NCBI GenBank assembly: GCA_030272585.1 | Contig: BSYQ01000003.1 | Location: forward strand, 1,426,001 to 1,490,000 | DNA length: 64,000 nucleotides | Reading direction: 5' to 3' | DNA from: Bryopsis sp. KO-2023 | Taxonomy: Eukaryota; Chlorophyta; Ulvophyceae; Bryopsidales; Bryopsidaceae | In this document: positions 3,001 to 48,242 of the stretch, piece after piece | Position numbering within the stretch: the stretch's first letter is position 1 | How the letters are laid out: each line of letters begins with the position of its first letter | The notes under the pieces: generated by a model | What the model was told of the DNA's origin: nothing | The model's database searches: none | Seen by the model: only the letters and a program-made list of their open reading frames with translations | Made by a program: the position numbers and the translations under genes

Positions 3001-6000
3001 AAGTCGCTGAGAAAAATGTCTGACCCCGAATCCTCTGCTATATTCTCTCGAAAGACTGCATCGTCGAGTCGCAATTCAGATTCATGCGAATCGGATTTCC
3101 TGACGGAGCTCTGGCAATCTCCCAGCAGTTTTTCCATCAAAACGGTGGCTTGACAATTTGGCTGCTTGAGCTTGTCTGCTGAAACATGGAGTCCACCTGG
3201 ATACCCACAATTTGAACATGAGTGATTTCAAATCTTGATTAAACCAAATACCAGGAAAGGTGTTTCCCCCCCCCCCCCCTCAATTTCATCCACTTTTTAT
3301 CGTTACCTCCTTTTTTTGCCTGGTTTTCCTGAATGTCACAGGACATACATCTCCAAGGGACCAAGTGGCTGCTGGCAAAAGCAGCAAGATGCATTGAAAC
3401 ACCACCTCCATTTCCAACAGCAGTATTGTTGTCAATGGTAATATTTTCACCATGGAAGATGGCATCCTCAAGATGCACCCCTCCACCGGACCATGCTGTA
3501 CAGTTGATAATGGATGAATTCACGAGCGTCAGATTTGAGGCTGGCAATGCTCTTATCGCACCTCCGGATGCGATTTCCTTCCCACCAAAGCCAGCACTGT
3601 TGGAGTCGAAAAGGCACGATTCACAAAGCACAATCCTAGACCTGAGATCAATGGCCCCACCTCCTTCCATCGCAAAGTTGTCCACAAAGCGAGCCATTTT
3701 CAACTCCACTAAATCAAAGTCAGTTTTGTATGTAGCAGTGTCGAACTGGTCGAATGAGGCAGCACCTCCAACTTTGGCAGCATTTCCAACAAAGGATACG
3801 TTGTTCACCAGGACTTCAGTGCTGAAGACTGACAGTGCTCCCCCTATAAGAGCAACCCCCCCAAAAAAGCTGGAGTCCTGCACAGTCAGTCCTACCGAAT
3901 CTCGAACATACAGCGCTCCTCCCATCGTAGCCATGTTGCTTGAAAAATTGCAGTCTTTGAATTCTGAGGCCAAACCCAAACCGGCCACTACCACAGCTCC
4001 GCCTTTGCTGTTGATGGATTCCACTCCAGCAGACATTTCGGTGCCAGCCTTGTTGTCAGTGAAAATCGAGGAATGCACTTTTACAAGGGATTCCTTGTTG
4101 CCCACAATCAAACTCAAGCTCTCATCCTTCAGCAAAGCAAACCCACCAAAGAAAAACTGCTTCAAGAAATATAGATGCAGATGGAAATTGCATGAATTTT
4201 GTATTATGAATAGTATATATCTGTCGGAGTCAGGATGTTCCACAACATCTGAATCTAGGGTCTATTTCTTTTTTTTTTGTTTCGATTACCTCACAATACA
4301 ATGCTCCCCCCTTGACTTGGGCAATGTTGACTTCAAAGGCACACCGAGACAAGGAAAGGTTTCCATTCTGCATGAACACGCCTCCACCGACTTGAGCAAG
4401 ATTTCCTAAGAATTTCGTAGACTTGATTGCTGCACTCGGGGACAAAGCCTACAAGATTGACGTCCACTTTTGATTGGAGCCATCAAAACAACATGTAGCA
4501 ACGAATACAGTCACAAAGTCCTCACTTCAAATTGAATAAAATAAATAGCTCCTCCATACTGTGTTGCAGAATTGTTTTGACACAGACTGTCCTCCATGTC
4601 CAGGTCGACACCAACCAAACGAAGACCCCCTCCACCGCCAGCTGCATAGTTATGTTTGAATGCCACTTCCTTTGTGCTGAGATGTGTTCTTGCCTGGGCA
4701 TAGATAACTGACATTTACAATCCCACCACGGAGGCAAGTTTCAAAAGCAAAAAAACATGCTTGGGAAAATATGACCAAAAGCTATTCCAGCTGTTCCTCT
4801 GGTCAAATGGGGAAAGTTTCTGATGCCGACAAAAAAATGGCTTGGCCCTTGCTTACTTCTGCGGCAGAGCTTCCAAATGATTGAATCGCACCCCCCGCTT
4901 CGTTTCCAATATTTCTGGTAAGGTTTGATTTTATAATGGTTGTATTCGTGAATTCCAGATCAATTGCACCACCGAGTTTCAACGCAACATTGTCGTGGAA
5001 GCTGCTCCCTTCAATAAGCAACATACCATCCTGAAAAATACAAAAAACGTCACGCAGTTCACCTGAAAATGCTTTGCATGATTCGTCCAGCCAGGGACCT
5101 GCCCCTATGTTTGACATGAAAAAAAGAAGGGGAGGGGGGGTGGGGGAATGGGGTTAGGATCATGTGTTTCTGACATTGGACATGGGAACAAAAAATTGAA
5201 CTAGGTGTCGCAAGAACAGGAAAAAAAATAGGATTATGATGTGTGCCTTATCTATCGCAAACTTTTCTTCACCCCATACATCTCAACCCAGGAAAAAAAA
5301 AAAAGAAACCTTCCTTGCATTCATGACTTGGGAGTGCAACTTTTCTGTCATGAATGGATCACGTATCAACAAGGGAAGTTACATTAGGAAAAATCCCCCA
5401 AAAAAGCCCATTCAAAATCACTTTTTCTGAAAGTAAATTCGTAAATATGGCCCATGTCGCTCTTTTGCTCAATAGTTTGTGGACCTACCCTAACAAATAT
5501 TCCTCCACCAGCTTTTGCTTCATTGTGGGCAAAGCTGGAATTGGTAATGACAATTTTGGATACATTCACCAGAAAAATTGCCCCTCCAGCTCTGGAAAAC
5601 ATTTGGTCATCATCAAGTTTTCTGGTCGCTGTTACACCGTCCTGTTCAGACAGAGATCAAAAAATGGGAGCTCTTTTTCAAGAAGAATCTTATTTTTTTA
5701 ATTTCAAAGTAAAATAGGAGGAGGGAACAAGATTGATCTGGAAGAGTAGCCGTCGAGAAATCGACTGATACATATTAGTTATCTTGTTTTTCCCTTGGGA
5801 AAATTATGTACTGTCCAAACGAGTGTGGCAAAGTAGTATGGATTCTCAAAATACTGGAGACCCCAACATTGACACAGACTACCGTCATTTTGCAAAATAG
5901 TGTTTCTGAGGAGACATACCTTAAAGCTGTCGTCGCCGCTCTCCACCGCCTGGTTTTTGAAAAAAAGAGAGTGGGATATTTCAAGACTGACAATTCCACT

Positions 6001-9000
6001 GCCATAAACAGCACCACCATCACTGGTTGCCTTGTTCTTTGTAAAGTTTGAACCTTTGATGGATGCTCGCAACCCATCTCCCAAAAGATCAAGGCCACCA
6101 GCATAAGCTCCCCTTGATTTACGAGCAGCTGAATTTCCATTAAATGTGCAGCCAGCGATGTTTATAGATCCATCAATCCCCTGCATAAGAAAAGATTGGT
6201 GGAGTAGAACCACAATATAATAAAACACACACACACACACACACACCATTGTCCTCCTATACTACAGTTTTTGGTATTGCCACTACCTGCAATTTCTTTA
6301 CTGCTAAAAAGCGACCATACACTTCTTCCGTAATAGAAAAAAAAAAGCCGCGTAAAATAAAACAAGCAAAACTATTTGCAGCACTTGTCTTCACACTGGA
6401 ATTCCTTGAAATCCTGTCTTCAATTGCCAATTTTTTTTCAATAAAATCCCACCTGTGTCAGGATCCAAATCGCCCCGGCACTGACTGTTGCTCGGTTGTG
6501 AGTGAAAGTGGACGTTTCGATTAAAACTTTAGGTATACCCTGAAGCAAAAGAGCTCCCCCCACAAATGTACCTTCCTGTTTTTCAAGACCCTAAGGAAAA
6601 CATAAAATCATGAGTGAGTGTGACTTGGAACGAAAATTCCAAGGAACAGTCAACAGCAGACCTTCATCTTCCCCGTTTTTCACATTCTTGATATTCCATT
6701 CAGAAGGATCGTAAAAAAAAATATCAGAAACGATTCTGATAACACGTGAAACTAATCTTGCCCCCTGGAAAATAGAGACCATGAAATGCAGGTTAGAATA
6801 AGCCAAGCCGCCGTTTTATCGGTATCTTTGGCATCGGTGGCATTACCACAGGTCGCTCCACCGCTTGGTTCCTGTAGAACATGCATCTGGAGATTTTGAG
6901 GCTTTTCATTTTCATGCCCCATATCGCTCCTCCCCCTGCTCCTCGCCCCCCTGAACCAGATATATTGTCTGAGAAAGTGACATTCTCAAGCGTGGCAAAA
7001 GTGCCATTTCCGAGAAGTGCCATTGCACCCCCAAACGGGGCAACATCCAGACGAATCCCTTCAGCAGAGTTTCTTTCAAAAATTGTTGCTCTGATTTCAA
7101 GGTTTGTAATCTCTGGTGCATTTGCCTGTAAAGAAAAAATAATAATTAAGGGAATTTTAAAGTCTGTGCCTGGTTGATTATTATTTTTTTTTCATGGGCG
7201 AATTCGACAAAAAAAAAAATCCACTGTGGTACAGAATGATCCACAATTAATTTTATTGTAACTTTTATTAATTTTATTTTTTTAACATATATATGGACTA
7301 AATCACCTCGTTGTGGACGACCTTTTTTGGGCAAGTTTGCCTAATGTAAATTAAATATTCATTCATTAATAATAAAAATTGTTATATGTACAATAACATA
7401 AGATAATAATAATATATTTATATAATAATATATACTTTTTTACTTTGGCGAGCAGCACTGTCTTTAGCCATCGACACTACCAAGGCTGAATCTTACTTCC
7501 ACAAGAAGCGCCCCACCAAGTTCTGCCTGGTTTTGGGTAAATTTGGATTCCACAATTGCGGTCTCCTGAACACCTGTCAAAAACAATGCCCCTCCCTGTG
7601 GGCTAACTGATTTGTTTCCACTTTCCACAGCAGCACCCTGTGAAAATTGACAAGACATCAACCCCATCTCCGGAATAGGTTTATTCATCATTACTTTCAC
7701 AGAAATTTAATGTGGCCCAAAATGTGAAAACCATTATTATTATTATTATTGCAGGTCCCAAAACCTCTACAATTGTTTTTTTATTTTTTTTTTGGGGGGG
7801 GGGGTCCGGAGATGCTCTCTCAAACTCCTTTCAAGAAAACGATGATTGCTTCGCACACCTGGCTTGTCGTGGGTAGACCCGCTCGATTACTCAAAAATTT
7901 GGACCTCAAGATGTTAATCTTGTTCAATCGAATGACAGCCACAGCCCCTCCGAACGCTCCAGCATTATTCTCAGTAAAAGTGATGCCCTTAAAACTGGCC
8001 TCAGTTCCATTTTCAGCCATTGTAATGGCACCCCCCAGGGAACGAAGACCACCGAAACTGCCTGCTGCATGATTTCTTTCAAAACTGCATCTCTCTAATT
8101 CCAGTTTATTCACATTGGGCAAATAGCCCTGAAACCACAACACAGGAGAAAAAGAATGTTGAAAACCTTGAGGGTTTATTCTTGGATACTCAAAAAAAAT
8201 AAAAACAGTCGGTCCTCCCAAAATACGATCGAACGAAAGGTATCTCACCTCCATCCAGATTGCACCGCCTTGAAAGGCATGATTTTGAATGAAAACACTA
8301 GCCTTGATAAAAACTCTAGTTCCCTTTGATGCATTTATTGCACCTCCCAAGTTGCTTGCCGAATTATTAGTGAATGTCACTTCCGAGATCTCAGCATTCA
8401 GTTTCGGTCCAAGGAGGCTTACCCCCCCTCCTGCTCTCCAGTTCAAGTCATTCTTATACTCGCCGTAAACCCGATTCTCACTAAAATCGACATTTCTCAT
8501 TTTCACTTCTGCCCCCTTCTCACCCTGGAATTGAACCACACTCGAATTATATCAATCAACTACTTCTGAGACGAAAAAACAAAAAAAACAAAAAAGATTT
8601 TGCTTTGAAATTATGCTCCTCCACTGCAAATTTGTTTGCCCTATCCAGCCACCCACCACGATAAAGATCGCTCCTCCATTATCCAATGCCAGATTTTCAG
8701 CGAAGCGAGAATTCGACAAATTGAGGTTGGAGTTGTGCATGTAAATGGCCCCCCCTTGCTCAGTAGCATGGTTGCTTTCGAAAACAGAATCAATGATGAA
8801 AACTTCAGATTCCCCAGCAAAAGACATGGCCCCTCCGTACACTGCTGTGTTATTCTTTGCTGTGACGTTTTGCATCCAAATGGTGGAATTGACTGCAGAA
8901 AGACATGAAGCTCCATTCTTGTTTGCATTGCTTTCCATTCCTACATCCCTCAAAGTCACATTTCGAGATCCTTTCACTTGTAGTAGCCCCGATGGACTGT

Positions 9001-14928: not shown

Positions 14929-15002
14929 TGGCCAAGAAGGGGATCGAACCCTCGACATTCGCGTTATTAGCACGACGCTCTAACCAACTGAGCTACTCGG
15001 CC
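14929..15002 (-). tRNA. tRNA-Ile (anticodon AAU)
   Basis: The reverse complement folds as a complete 74-nt eukaryotic tRNA. The acceptor stem GGCCGAG pairs with CTTGGCC, with one G-U pair. The D-arm contains TAGCTCAGTTGG (A box), the anticodon loop is CTAATAA with anticodon AAT (read as IAU), and the T-arm contains GGTTCGATCCC (B box). The discriminator is A, no CCA is encoded, and no intron is present. No T4 terminator run was found within about 50 nt downstream, which is unusual for a Pol III gene. Confidence 0.97.
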
Positions 15003-18682: not shown

Positions 18683-18693
18683 TATATATAAAA
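18683..18693 (+). promoter_or_regulatory. TATA-like element upstream of the octad-repeat gene
   Basis: TATATATAAAA ends about 9 bases before the ATG at 18702. This is closer than a canonical TATA box allows with a start site 25-30 nt downstream, unless the transcript starts within the coding region. It may be coincidental. Confidence 0.25.
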
Positions 18694-18701
18694 CAGTCAC
18701 T

Positions 18702-19604
18702 ATGATGAGAGGCACTGTTCTGGCCGCCATCGTGGTGTTAGGTCTTGCTTGTGTCGCAAACGCGAGGGAGCTGCAGGGCCACCACTGCTGCAAGCACGTC
18801 CTGAAATGCCACGACGTCCCCAATCACACCTGCACGCACGTGCCCAAGCAGGTGTGCCACAAAGTTCCCAAGAAAGTTTGCGACGACGTTCCGATCAGAA
18901 AATGCCATCCCACCACCGAGAAGGTCTGCAAGAAGGTTCCTGAACAGGTGAGTCGCTTCCCCAGATATGCCGCACGCACGTTGCGTTTCCCCCGACCTCG
19001 TTGCTGAAGCGCTATGCTGTGTGGTTGGTTCGCAGAAGTGCGACAAAGTCAAGAAGAAGGAGTGCGAGAAAGTCCCCAAGGAAAACTGCTGCAAGGTGCC
19101 CGAGAAACAGTGCAGGAAGGTGCCTGAGAAGAAGTGCTATACCGACTACAAGCAGGAGTGCCACCACGTCAACAAGAAGGTGAGAAGAGGTTTGGACTTT
19201 GCTGTGCGCGCTTTTGATTTCTGACGGAGGAGCCGACTTGACGTTTGGATGTGGACTTGTAGATCTGCGACGCCCACAAGAAGTGCTACTGGAAACGGGT
19301 GCCTGTATGCGAGAGAGTCCCTTTTAAGAAATGCGCAATCGAGCACGTAGAGAAGTGCGAGATCCTGCACAAGAAGAAGTGCGACACCATCTACGAGCAA
19401 GTGTGCAAGCCTGTTTGGAAAAAGGAGTGCAAAGAGGAGCACGTCGAGAAGTGCGAGCACATCAAAAAAGACAACTGCTTTGTCGACTACGAGCAAAAGT
19501 GCGAGACCGTCCACAAGAAGGAGTGCAAACCCATCCAGGATAAAAAGTGCAAGACGGAGTATGTCAAGAAGTGCGAAAAGGTCAAAGAGTGCGGCCACTG
19601 CTAA
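18702..19604 (+). CDS. Secreted Cys-rich protein built of C-x7 octads
   Basis: Exons 18702-18947, 19036-19179 and 19263-19604 all join in phase 0, giving 243 aa. Residues 1 to about 22 form a signal peptide (basic start, Ala/Val/Leu core, cleavage near ANA/RE). The rest is almost entirely an eight-residue repeat beginning with Cys, about 26 units, with a consensus near C-x-x-V-P-x-K-x in the first half and a looser C-x-x-x-H/Y-x-K-K in the second. It ends in CGHC. Lys and Glu are strongly enriched and there is no membrane helix. Each intron falls at an octad boundary, right before a Lys/Ile-Cys. The repeat suggests an extended, disulfide-cross-linked extracellular fibre or wall/scale protein, or metal binding; this is inference. 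A decayed inverted copy of its 3' part lies at 36795-37215. Confidence 0.9.
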
Positions 19605-36794: not shown

Positions 36795-37215
36795 AAGAGT
36801 GGTCAACATATTTGTGAGCACTGTACATCTAAAACCAATCGCAAATGGGAGCCCTGGGCTCTCAAAAGTAGAACTTGAAGATTGGTGCATGCAGGCGCAG
36901 CGAAGTGGATCGCAGAAATGCCGTGCTTAGCAGTGGCCGCACTCTTTGACCTTTTCGCAGTTCCTGACGTGCACCGTCTCGCACTTGTTCTCCTAGATGG
37001 TTTTGTACTCCTTCTTGTGGACGGTAGTGCACTTTCGCTGGTAGTCGACGAAGCAGTTGTAATTTTGGATCTGCTCGCATTTATCGACAGGCTTGCACAC
37101 TTGCTGGTAGCTACCATCTATAGATGGTGTCGCACTTCTCTACGTGCTCGCTTTTGCACTGTGACTCGTAAACAAGAAACTCACAGCACTTTTCTAACTT
37201 TTTAAAGGGACTTTC
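36795..37215 (-). pseudogene. Broken inverted copy of the 3' part of the octad-repeat gene
   Basis: Read on the minus strand, this matches the last exon of the gene at 18702-19604 plus about 130 bases of its 3' UTR, including the shared GAGCCCTGGGCTCTC-type hairpin word and a final CACAAATATGT word. The copy retains the C-x7 pattern and ends in KECGHC. It carries a deletion/insertion near 37120 that leaves a TAG after a GACACCATCTAT segment, a second in-frame TAG near 36992, and at least one Cys-to-Tyr change. Its 5' end falls inside exon 3, so neither signal peptide nor introns are present. No poly(A) tract is found at its 3' edge, which argues for DNA-level duplication with inversion rather than retroposition. 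Confidence 0.9.
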
Positions 37216-43994: not shown

Positions 43995-46900
43995 TCAAAT
44001 CTCCTCTTGCTCCAGAGCGCTTCTGAACACAGACTCGTACAGTGCAGCAGATTTTCCCCAGCTGAAATCTTTCAGCATTCCACTCCGTAAGCTATTCCAT
44101 CTTCTCCTGTCATTTGTGAAAACCTTCAAGGCAGCTTTCAGGGTTTCCATCATGCTGTCGACGGTGGGCTCCTGGAAGGTCCATCCAGTACCCATCGACG
44201 ATTCCTCCTTTCCAAATGGGTTGAAATCCTCAATCGTTTCAGACAGCCCACCAGTAGCATGAGCGACAGGCACAGTGCCATATCTGGATTTCGAAATGCA
44301 ACAGTCAGTGGAGAAGCGAGGTTATTATCTATGAACAGGAATAGGGCTGGTGATGAGTCAGGCCAACTGTACTGAAACACATTTGACCTTGTTGAAATGT
44401 GTTGCTGTGCATCCAATAATATTAAAGATAATGCAATATCTTTCAACATCTGTGGATGCGTTTTTCTGAGGGTTTCTTTCGTGTGCCTGTTTTTTTTGGA
44501 AAAGGAAAAAAACGTGAAAAAGAAACAAAAAAATTCCCTTCATTTATACATAGGTTAGCCAAAGCTCACTGCATTTCCCTTCAGAGGCGAAATCAAGAAT
44601 GGGGAAGTTCTTGCACAAGAAAAATAATTGATGGTGGGACATGATTTTTATTTTTTTTTTATTTTTTTCTTGGGGGGGGGTGGAATGGACTCAGCCTACC
44701 TCATGGCATAGAGTTGTGTGAGTCCACAGGGTTCAAATCTCGATGGGATCAACAATATATCGCATCCAGCGATGATCCTATGAGATACCGGCACAGAGTA
44801 GCCAACCCATCCACGAAAAAAGTCCCTACATCGCACCCACATTTCTCCATCAGCAAAACAAACACAAAACTTAGCAGCACCAAGATCAAGGGCTCTCTGC
44901 AACAATTTCCAGCCATCAAAAAATACAAAAAAGAGGCTCCGACCTGTGTTGGACTTCTTTCTCTTTCATTAATTCCTCCAAATCGTTCATTCCGCTCCCC
45001 AACATGACCACTTGACAGTCCTCCATGGCCAACCAATCCAAAGCATTCAGAACCAGGTCAGGTCCCTTTTGATGGTCCAATCGCCCCACAAAACCGATCA
45101 GAGGAATGCCTCGAGATACATCGAACCCCAGCTCCTTTTGCAAACTTGCTTTGCACTCCACTTTGCCTTCCATGTCGTCAAACGAATATCTGATACGAAC
45201 AAGAAAAGCAGGGCAAAAAACTATTCCGATCAGTTGGGTTTGATTCTGGGGCATGCGATCAGACGGCTCAGGCCCAGTTTCGGCTGTTTAAATATATTGT
45301 ATAGTTTTCTGCGCAAATGGATAATAAATTTTCCATATGGCAGTCGATTTCCACTCACGATGCAGCAGCAGGGGTCATGACATGAAAACTGGCAAGGAAA
45401 CTCTCTGCCAAGACGGTTTTCAATAACAAGTGTTTTTGACACCTACGTTGCTTCGATAAATTTGTCTGTCTCTGGGTTCCACTCTTTCGTGTCGATTCCA
45501 TTGACGATTCCGTTCATGTCTTTGACCCTTGAAGACGATATTGGATAGAGCCCCATTGCCCCTTCCTTGCTGGTGATGTCCCAGGCATGATTTCTGCTCA
45601 CCGTTACGATTCGATCCGAAGAAAAAATCGCACCCTGGAATGAAACAAAACAAAAATAAGATAAACAGATAAGGTCTCCTTGCATTCCCTCGACACCACC
45701 ACCACCAACCTCAAAAAACGCTTTTGCAACAAATTGAAGGAACACACCTTCATGATATTGATCGACTGATGTCCATCCTCCGCCACCCATTCCAGCGCTC
45801 CGAATGCTGTGTCAGGCAACCCCAGCCATTTGAAAGCGGAGGGGTCTTCGATTCCTTGATGGGCGAGGTTATGGATTGCCAAAACGCATTTGGCGTTTTG
45901 AAACACCTCGTGTGGGCGATATTTGTGTTCGAAGTAAACCGGGATGAGGCCGGTGTGCCAATCATTGCAAACCATCACGATGTCTTCCCCGTAGGTCGAT
46001 GCAGAATTGGTGGGTTCGTCAGGGAGGTACAGATGCAGCGGAGCTTCGCATGCAGCCATGCTGAGAATAGCATATCTGTTGCGCGATCGAGTGGAACAAA
46101 AATATGGAAAAGTTTAGAAATTTTGCTTGATTAACAAATCCCGAAATGATGCTGGAAAATCTTACAACGATTTACCCAAATAGAGGAACAAAACGAAAAG
46201 GTGAGCTGATTGTTTTAGTTCGTGATCAATTAAAAAAAAAATGACGATGTGTATTTACTAATTGGGGTGTTGGACATGACTAATATTCCCCAAACAGAGG
46301 AAAGGGAGGGGTGAGATTACCTGCTTAAGTTATCCCCAAAGACTCCATTCTTGTCGCCATAGGGCCCTCCCGGTCGGTGAAAGCATGGGTGGTCCACGAA
46401 AATCCAATCCACCCCTTTCTCAAAATTGTGGAAAAATCTGACCTCCTGGCAACCCATGTGCCCCAAATCCAAAGGCACTTGGCACTGTTTGTCATGAATG
46501 TCCGCATATATGCCGTCGTTCACTCCGTTCAGGTACCTGCAGCGAGAATACTTCGTTTTTGAAAAGATGATGGACAAATCTGTTTGTGGGTCCAGATTTC
46601 CACAGGAACTCACATCAACAGGTGTTTTGTTGTATATTTCTTTTCTTCGTGTGGATATTTATTTTGATATCTATTTACATATATCCGAATTCTATGGCCA
46701 CCAGGGTCATTGCGAGATGGGGTGACTGCCTATCCTGAAGAGGTCAACCCCACACACAAAGAGAAAAATTTTAAAATTTTAGCCCTCCAGGGAAAAATCA
46801 TGCACCCGAACTGAAAACACATGGAAAAAAAAATGAAAAAAATTAGACAAAAAGAGTATTTACCTTGCACTCCATTCATTACCTGGGTGTCACCACCATC

Positions 46901-48242
46901 ACCCTGTGCCCCAGTTCTGCCAAAGCCACAGGCAGAGACCCGGCCACATCGCCCAAACCCCCTGTCTTGCTCCAGGGCGAAACCTCGGCACTCACATAGA
47001 CGATGTTCAGCCTGGTGGTCTTCCCCAGCTTTTCCTTAGGGCCACCGCCCTCGAAATCGATTGCCGCTGCCGCCGCCGCCTTTTCAATATCGTCACTCTT
47101 GATGGGGGGTGGGGGCATGACAAACCGTTCTGAGGGTTTGGTTTCTGGCTGAAAGGGTTGCGCTTCTGGCTCCAAGGGTTGGGTTTCTGGTTCCAAGGGC
47201 TTGGTGTCTGGCTGGAAGGCTCTGGTATCTGGCTGATAGGCTCTGGTGTTTGGCTGGTAAGCTCTGGTGTCTGGCTGATAGGCTCTGGTGTCTGGCTGAT
47301 AGGCTCTGGTGTCTGGCTGGTAGGCTCTGGTGTCTGGCTGGTAGGCTCTGGTGTCTGGCTGGTAGGCTCTGGTGTCTGGCTGGTAAGCTCTGGTGTCTGG
47401 CTGGTAAGCTCTGGTGTCTGGCTGGTAAGCTCTGGTGTCTGGCTGATAGGCCCTGGTGTCTGGCTGATAAGCTCTGGTTTCTGGCTGATAAGCTCTGGTT
47501 TCTGGCTCGAAGGGTTTGGTTTCTGGCTCCAAGGGCTCGGTCTCTGGCTCTACCAAAACCCTGTATGTCAATTGATTTGAGGATTCTGCAAACATAAAAG
47601 CATAGAGCCCAATCAGCAACCCTGATCAACATCTGTCCACACTAACAAAGGAGAAAGAAAACCACATCATTTGTTATTAATTTCTTCTTGACCGATGATG
47701 AATTTCAGAAATTTTGGCAGATTACTCCAGAAAATTAGTTTTGCATCACTCTAAATCGAGTGAGAATCGAATTTCAAGTGAGATAGTTTCTGTGCTGATG
47801 ACTAAGGTGTGTTTGCCGAACCCGCCTGGCTCCTGTCAGCCTGAAAGAATTTGTTGGCCGAACGCGTCATCCTGTTGCCAGCGTTCTCGAGCTTTTCCTT
47901 CAGATTGCGGTTGGCCACTTTCAAGCGGGCCACCTCATTTTCTAGAGTTTCGACAGACAGCATCGCCATATCATTGTCCCAATCCGCCGGGAGGTCCACC
48001 GGACGACCCACTGTCGATTCCCCATTTCGACTCCAACGCTCAGGCTGTTTCGAACAGCGAAGCACCCCGCCCCGTTGGGCTGGCCACCTGGAAGCAGAGA
48101 TGCTTGGTTACGTGGTAGGTTACTCATAAACGTCAAGAAACCAATGACGCGCGTGCACTGGACGAGGGGCCCGTTGCAACGGCAAGCTAAAGTCAACGGG
48201 TAGACAAACTTGCAGCCATGAGGGTGAGAACATCCAGCTCAT
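43995..48242 (-). CDS. SSI: Starch synthase I (GT5), plastid, with heptapeptide-repeat linker
   Basis: Nine exons: 48242-48124, 48087-47822, 47585-46883, 46536-46321, 46075-45748, 45634-45447, 45189-44944, 44825-44700, 44283-43995. All phases agree, giving 826 aa. The enzyme transfers glucose from ADP-glucose to alpha-1,4-glucan chains in the plastid. Visible features: a putative transit region (1 to about 50), a coiled-coil segment (about 75-115, [19 protein letters not shown]), a 20-unit heptad linker (about 141-280), and a GT5 N-domain starting with the ADP-glucose loop KTGGL (about 335-339). GT5/GT1-fold blocks follow: [39 protein letters not shown] and [18 protein letters not shown], then HATGGL. 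The wording YLNGVND, YSFDDM and EDFNPFG is closest to plant SSI rather than SSII-IV or GBSS. The chosen ATG at 48242 is the first in frame. Confidence 0.96.
44672..44680. repeat. G9 end of a composite T-run/G-run tract
   Basis: A long T-rich run (44645-44671) ends in nine G residues, inside the last intron of starch synthase I. Confidence 0.85.
47131..47550 (-). repeat. 21-bp minisatellite, 20 units, in the starch synthase I coding exon
   Basis: Twenty in-frame 21-bp units encode heptapeptides. Most are AYQPDTR in one register (QPDTRAY), with edge variants such as EPETKPF, QPNTRAY and EPEAQPF. The central units are nearly identical at DNA level, differing mainly between CTGATAGG, CTGGTAGG and CTGGTAAG spellings, so they look recently expanded. 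The array creates long spurious open frames on both strands. Confidence 0.97.

Follow-up and report, generated by a model that had tools for sequence, protein, structure and literature searches.

Which kind of protein is encoded by a gene made almost entirely of eight-residue units opening with Cys, and what could it do in an alga such as Bryopsis? This question is raised by a locus of Bryopsis sp. KO-2023 (assembly GCA_030272585.1, contig BSYQ01000003.1) lying on the plus strand of the 64,000-nucleotide stretch (positions 1,426,001 to 1,490,000 of the contig) that was analysed here as a whole and is called the window. An earlier note on this DNA had placed a gene at 18702-19604, and these coordinates proved right, its three exons encoding 243 amino acids upon translation. 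The C-x7 octad gene and its reading frame are thus confirmed, with the following features (window coordinates).

18702..18947, plus strand: exon 1, an open frame ending at a GT donor that is placed alike relative to the octads in paralogues
18702..18764, plus strand: signal peptide MMRGTVLAAIVVLGLACVANA, 21 residues, read by eye from the translation with cleavage assumed before R-E-L-Q-G
18807..19265, plus strand: octad block 1, 12 octads, with both introns inside
18948..19035, plus strand: intron 1, 88 nt, phase 0, GTGAGT...CGCAG, splitting an octad after its seventh residue
19036..19179, plus strand: exon 2, 48 residues
19180..19262, plus strand: intron 2, 83 nt, phase 0, GTGAGA...TGTAG, its acceptor picked as paralogues keep the hexad after it
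19263..19604, plus strand: exon 3, including the stop codon TAA at 19602-19604
19266..19283, plus strand: hexad CDAHKK, separating the octad blocks, with a similar hexad in paralogues
19284..19574, plus strand: octad block 2, 12 octads, counting the closing Cys
36796..37088, minus strand: decayed 3' copy, covering the end of exon 3 and the 3' flank (blastn identity of 81% across 250 positions and of 86% across another 44)

Regarding the array itself, the C-x7 periodicity is real, while the figure of about 26 consecutive octads given by the earlier note has to be corrected to 24, arranged in two blocks of 12 and not in one unbroken series. The protein contains 32 Cys; one belongs to the signal peptide, and the other 31 all fall within the last 221 residues, together with 52 Lys, 25 Glu, 25 Val and 17 His (the composition being 14% Cys and 23% Lys). 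Consecutive Cys are separated by a gap of 8 in 23 of 31 cases, and 24 Cys pairs stand 8 residues apart, as compared with 4.1 +/- 1.75 (maximum 12) in 20,000 shuffles of the same residues. Runs of at least four C-x7 units occur only three times on the two strands of the window, all within the three exons of the gene (the exon-2 run beginning in the read-through of intron 1), and runs of four such units are found nowhere else in the window on either strand. Likewise, the pattern C-x-x-V-P-x3-C has eight matches in the window for 0.48 expected, all of them inside the octad gene. The register is interrupted by three hexads (CKHVLK, CDAHKK and CEKVKE), short units stand at both array ends and one octad starts with CC. 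At the DNA level, the units are barely repeats (Tandem Repeats Finder reports just 2.3 copies at 74%), which suggests that the octad array is old and has been maintained at the protein level.

The window gene is one of about 19 related genes. Searching the 91.1 Mb genome (28 contigs) with the window protein returned 42 matches, corresponding to the window gene, the decayed copy in the window and 18 further loci; two other family members used as queries gave 47 and 37 matches and no new locus, neither of them recovering every locus. The family size (~19-20 genes) is a lower bound, the search scoring the best candidates alone. The 18 loci were modelled by means of a splice-aware octad model whose training set consisted of 104 family units, which favours the octad register by construction, and together with the window protein, set by hand, they provide 19 protein models. 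Among the 550 gaps between neighbouring Cys in these models, 475 are of 8 residues, 25 of 7, 17 of 6 and 12 of 9, and the commonest octad residues are, in order, C, K, T/D, V, P/Y, K/E, E/K and K/V. The modelled proteins span 93 to 382 residues across subfamilies (the shortest being probably partial) and a net charge of +22 for the window protein to -27 for L022. The window protein, with its C-x7 array following a signal peptide, is a member of the family so defined, in which most introns are in phase 0 and follow octad residue 7 or 3.

Conservation within this family is concentrated on Cys. When aligned with six paralogues (two of them only partly), the window protein keeps Cys at 28/31, 28/31, 28/30, 28/31, 21/23 and 23/25 aligned places, far above the other residues, kept at 26-33%. 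Moreover, dN/dS lies between 0.07 and 0.30 in all 10 close paralogue pairs tested, the window gene being outside these pairs, and purifying selection thus acts between paralogue pairs. On contig G000:C13, two octad genes (L018 and L019) lie ~27 kb apart on opposite strands and are near-identical (97.7% protein identity, dN 0.011, dS 0.081); both models lack the second intron seen in their relatives. In the window, the decayed copy lies 17 kb from the gene and its protein match (36930-37118) contains one stop; since it covers no exon border, it is equally compatible with a retrocopy and with a segmental duplication.

Several other features were recorded in the window and the genome. On the minus strand of the window, a frame at 46879-47625 carries about a dozen YQPDTRA-type heptads directly before a starch synthase catalytic domain (PF08323), a tRNA gene (Rfam) lies at 14929-15002, and two long frames rich in GGA/GGG repeats (3239-4261 and 7820-8551) resemble, by eye, beta-helix surface proteins of the polymorphic outer-membrane type. 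Contig C28, on which the photosystem reaction-centre family is matched twice, has 31% G+C in its first 10 kb, and contig C27 has 56% G+C over the same length; Bryopsis hypnoides has a plastid genome of 139,745 bp with 30.66% G+C and an unusual mitochondrial genome of 408,555 bp with 57.9% G+C (PMC11852573). The genome also contains 107 matches to light-harvesting proteins, and those that were translated look like the green LHCII kind. Such green-type proteins count against a cryptophyte origin, as does, more weakly, the lack of a phycoerythrin alpha match, for which the control gave no match either; a search for a fourfold TTAGGG repeat was negative. H-type lectin is matched 12 times in the genome and in none of 14 control genomes.

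The earlier note had also proposed that both introns are phase 0 and fall at unit borders, allowing the gene to change by whole units. Both are indeed phase 0, with the qualification that they sit one residue before Cys (Q|KC and K|IC). Splicing of the window gene is inferred from its frame and from the paralogues. The acceptor of intron 2 is ambiguous by octad register alone, the splice model having put it 18 nt further on and deleted the hexad; as a similar hexad (VCDHYGKC etc.) stands at this place in paralogues such as L009, L010, L012, L014, L015 and L021, the acceptor of the earlier note is supported. Over the family, 50 junctions were modelled (with the window intron 2 acceptor set by hand). 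Of these, 41 combine phase 0 with a place behind octad residue 7 (30 junctions) or residue 3 (11 junctions); the remaining 9 are scattered, and some of them are probably misplaced. The 41 phase-0 junctions after residue 7 or 3 are followed by G in 35 cases and by GT, a Val codon start, in 30, and are preceded by AG in 29. Because Val is frequent at octad positions 4 (256/475) and 8 (110/475), an AG|GT proto-splice site encoded ahead of Val may be a simple alternative to exon shuffling. Inside close subfamilies, intron positions look common by descent, i.e., simply inherited.

Changes by whole units are nonetheless apparent in the first octad exons. Between first Cys and first donor, 15 of 18 models have 23, 55, 71 or 79 residues, all equal to 7 modulo 8 (lengths were taken by hand, leaving out L026 (72), skipping the doubtful first segment of L012 and counting 55 from the EPKC motif of L014 in place of the script's 62). 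The exceptions are L020 and L022 (70) and the window gene, whose value of 53 is explained by its terminal hexad. First octad exons thus differ mostly by whole octads between subfamilies, in support of the idea that these genes grow and shrink by complete units.

The start of the window protein has, by eye, the appearance of a typical signal peptide. The start codon at 18702 is supported by paralogue L016, which begins with MKAAVTVTLLLAFACVATTARELQG, close to the start of the window protein, in a stretch ending in ARELQG. In 16 of 18 paralogue loci, a candidate start codon with a hydrophobic stretch behind it, hand-picked from a hydrophobicity list, lies upstream (none was chosen for L010 and L025, and the candidates of L013, L020, L022 and L026, being >450 nt away, are uncertain). 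As no in-frame connection links it to the octads, the signal peptide of these paralogues appears to be carried by a separate exon; L009 and L014 have, in addition, a weaker in-frame start nearer to the octads. From the signal peptide, the octad proteins are presumably exported. Upstream of the window gene, a TATA-like stretch (TATATATAAAA, 18683-18693) stands just 19 nt before the start codon, nearer than an ordinary TATA box would be, and TATAWA within 60 nt occurs in 0 of the 16 paralogue upstream regions examined.

Does this family belong to a known one? The author of the earlier note recognised no named family, and this held in all the libraries searched (Pfam, NCBIfam, PDB, phage, viral and GTDB). 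The window protein matched no Pfam family at E up to 10, and seven family members gave non-significant Pfam matches only (best E 0.02, SpoU_methylas_C). NCBIfam returned no significant match (best E 0.18), and the PDB gave two non-significant chains by sequence (E 0.21 and 0.55) and none at E up to 1 with a profile. Searching phage records by tblastn with paralogue L018 found no match, and none of the 18 stretches retrieved by peptide pattern from GTDB genomes was confirmed. Peptide patterns retrieved 21, 32 and 2 stretches from viral contigs, none confirmed by tblastn, and a DNA pattern with a 24-base period retrieved 95, of which 80 were listed. None of these viral C-x7 runs was taken as a relative. 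Judged by eye, many consist of 24-base DNA repeats that show the period in more than one frame and are poor in Lys and Glu. Nine viral loci (L095 at 5649-5771, L096, L105, L106, L113, L144, L152, L163 and L171) carry five exact CTEVPVVP octads in a single-frame run; these have the same spacing as the window family, but their units differ and are Lys-free. In the literature, no description of Cys-octad repeats was found in the titles and abstract openings among the matches listed; the string c-x7-c-x7-c occurs in papers on zinc fingers (PMC2873481) and leech peptides (PMC12295236). As other eukaryotes were covered only through PDB chains and curated family libraries, a relative could exist in other algae or in animals, where proteins with similar C-x-x-V-P arrays may occur.

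Among characterized systems, a few show some likeness. Cornifin/SPRR proteins have short repeats with Pro, Lys and Cys and end up in a cross-linked envelope. Their profile (PF02389) scores weakly in three of seven members scanned (best E 0.18, against a significance threshold of E at most 0.001), a level that families with no relation to the octads equal or surpass by chance (E 0.02-0.03); the octad proteins are not members. By profile, they also fall outside the C-terminal trimerisation domain of T4 gp5 (PF22178; best E 0.25, weak in four of seven members, same threshold), which is octapeptide-based with recurring Val but has no Cys array; single-chain models of pLDDT 46-49 are too poor to bear on a trimeric beta-helix. 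With metallothioneins, the octad proteins share a high Cys content but differ by their signal peptide and by the absence of CxC clusters. Bryohealin and the BPL lectins of Bryopsis plumosa are wound-repair proteins (PMC5793061; PMC3252328), BPL3 being similar to H-type lectin and serving wound healing together with others (PMC5793061); the octad proteins match no lectin profile.

Given a charged array behind a signal peptide, with Cys at regular intervals and under selection, the best explanation is in our view that this member of a family of charged Cys-octad proteins is a structural protein of the secretory pathway (i.e., wall, septum, vacuole or wound plug) that would set through disulfides, a reading to which we give roughly an even chance. 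However, conserved Cys are also compatible with compact disulfide folds, and a soluble, compact, disulfide-rich protein of the defence type (antimicrobial, protease inhibitor or ligand-binding), with neighbouring octads paired by intrachain disulfides, would also account for signal peptides, abundant Cys, a multigene family and divergence outside Cys. We consider this rather unlikely, as array length varies among subfamilies from 93 (probably partial) to 382 modelled residues, an odd number of Cys (31) follows the signal peptide and there is no significant match to any family. Structure prediction does not arbitrate here: with single sequences, AlphaFold gave a mean pLDDT of 46.3 for exon 3 and 48.9 for exon 1 minus its first 22 residues, values too poor to be used, and the extended fibre imagined in the earlier note gains no more support from it than any other fold.

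The extreme composition in Cys and Lys, together with the signal peptide, would suit a vacuolar storage or sulfur-reserve protein, cross-linked by disulfides in protein bodies and devoid of mechanical role, but strict octad spacing and low dN/dS imply a selection beyond composition, and we judge this unlikely. A metal-binding matrix or metallothionein-like protein, also evoked in the earlier note, could be favoured by the 31 Cys and 17 His of the last 221 residues; it is disfavoured by Cys spacing, since the 550 gaps of the 19 models contain 0 CxC, 3 CxxC and 3 CC. Cys in exported proteins are moreover usually oxidised, and with CxC absent metallothionein-like binding appears very unlikely. 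Finally, the window gene might itself be decaying or not expressed although the family is otherwise functional, as could be suggested by the TATA-like stretch so near its start codon and unmatched in the paralogues, by the decayed partial copy close by and by its position outside the dN/dS pairs. This has an even slimmer chance, the gene having kept an open frame across three exons, splice positions in common with its paralogues and 28 of 31 Cys.

Returning to a secreted protein that sets through disulfides, the octad proteins would enter the secretory pathway via their signal peptide, and their evenly spaced Cys would most likely form disulfides both within and between chains. As 31 is an odd number, one Cys or more would be left to bond with a different chain or partner should all the others pair. 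Such disulfides could lead to an insoluble or gel-like network; both Cys oxidation and network formation are inferred from sequence. With net charges from +22 to -27 among modelled members, charge-driven co-assembly is possible, the Lys and acidic residues of differently charged members attracting one another. The most likely site of use would be the wall, the septum or a vacuole-derived wound plug. The disulfide-linked fibre and the wall or scale glue suggested by the earlier note would be compatible with this picture.

The role in wound plugs is speculative and leans on the organism being a Bryopsis. Giant-celled algae survive cutting through very fast self-sealing and, to our knowledge, no gene has been assigned to their setting protein. 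In siphonous algae, the wound plug starts as a gel and has become hard after 1-2 h; for Dasycladus, an oxidised coumarin is described as the agent that cross-links side chains of amino acids (PMC6278426). The title of a 1972 cytochemical study mentions a 'wound-healing protein' from Bryopsis hypnoides (cited in PMC3252328). By analogy, a protein rich in Cys and Lys would be a natural substrate for wound-plug setting. In its most developed form, which we regard as unlikely, this proposal would have the family make up most of the protein in the wound plugs and septa of Bryopsis. Kept in secretory vesicles or the vacuole, it would polymerise in seconds to minutes once the giant cell is opened, as thiols are oxidised and lysines cross-linked; basic members would assemble together with acidic ones, and the octads would represent a repeat architecture so far undescribed.

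A Cys at every eighth residue, retained over about 19 diverged genes, is an unusual design. Even if these genes encode storage or defence proteins instead, they constitute a still unclassified protein family. If they encode a protein that sets through disulfides, the octad family would provide concrete candidate genes for the wound-sealing protein of giant-celled algae and may serve as a template for a disulfide-setting biomaterial.
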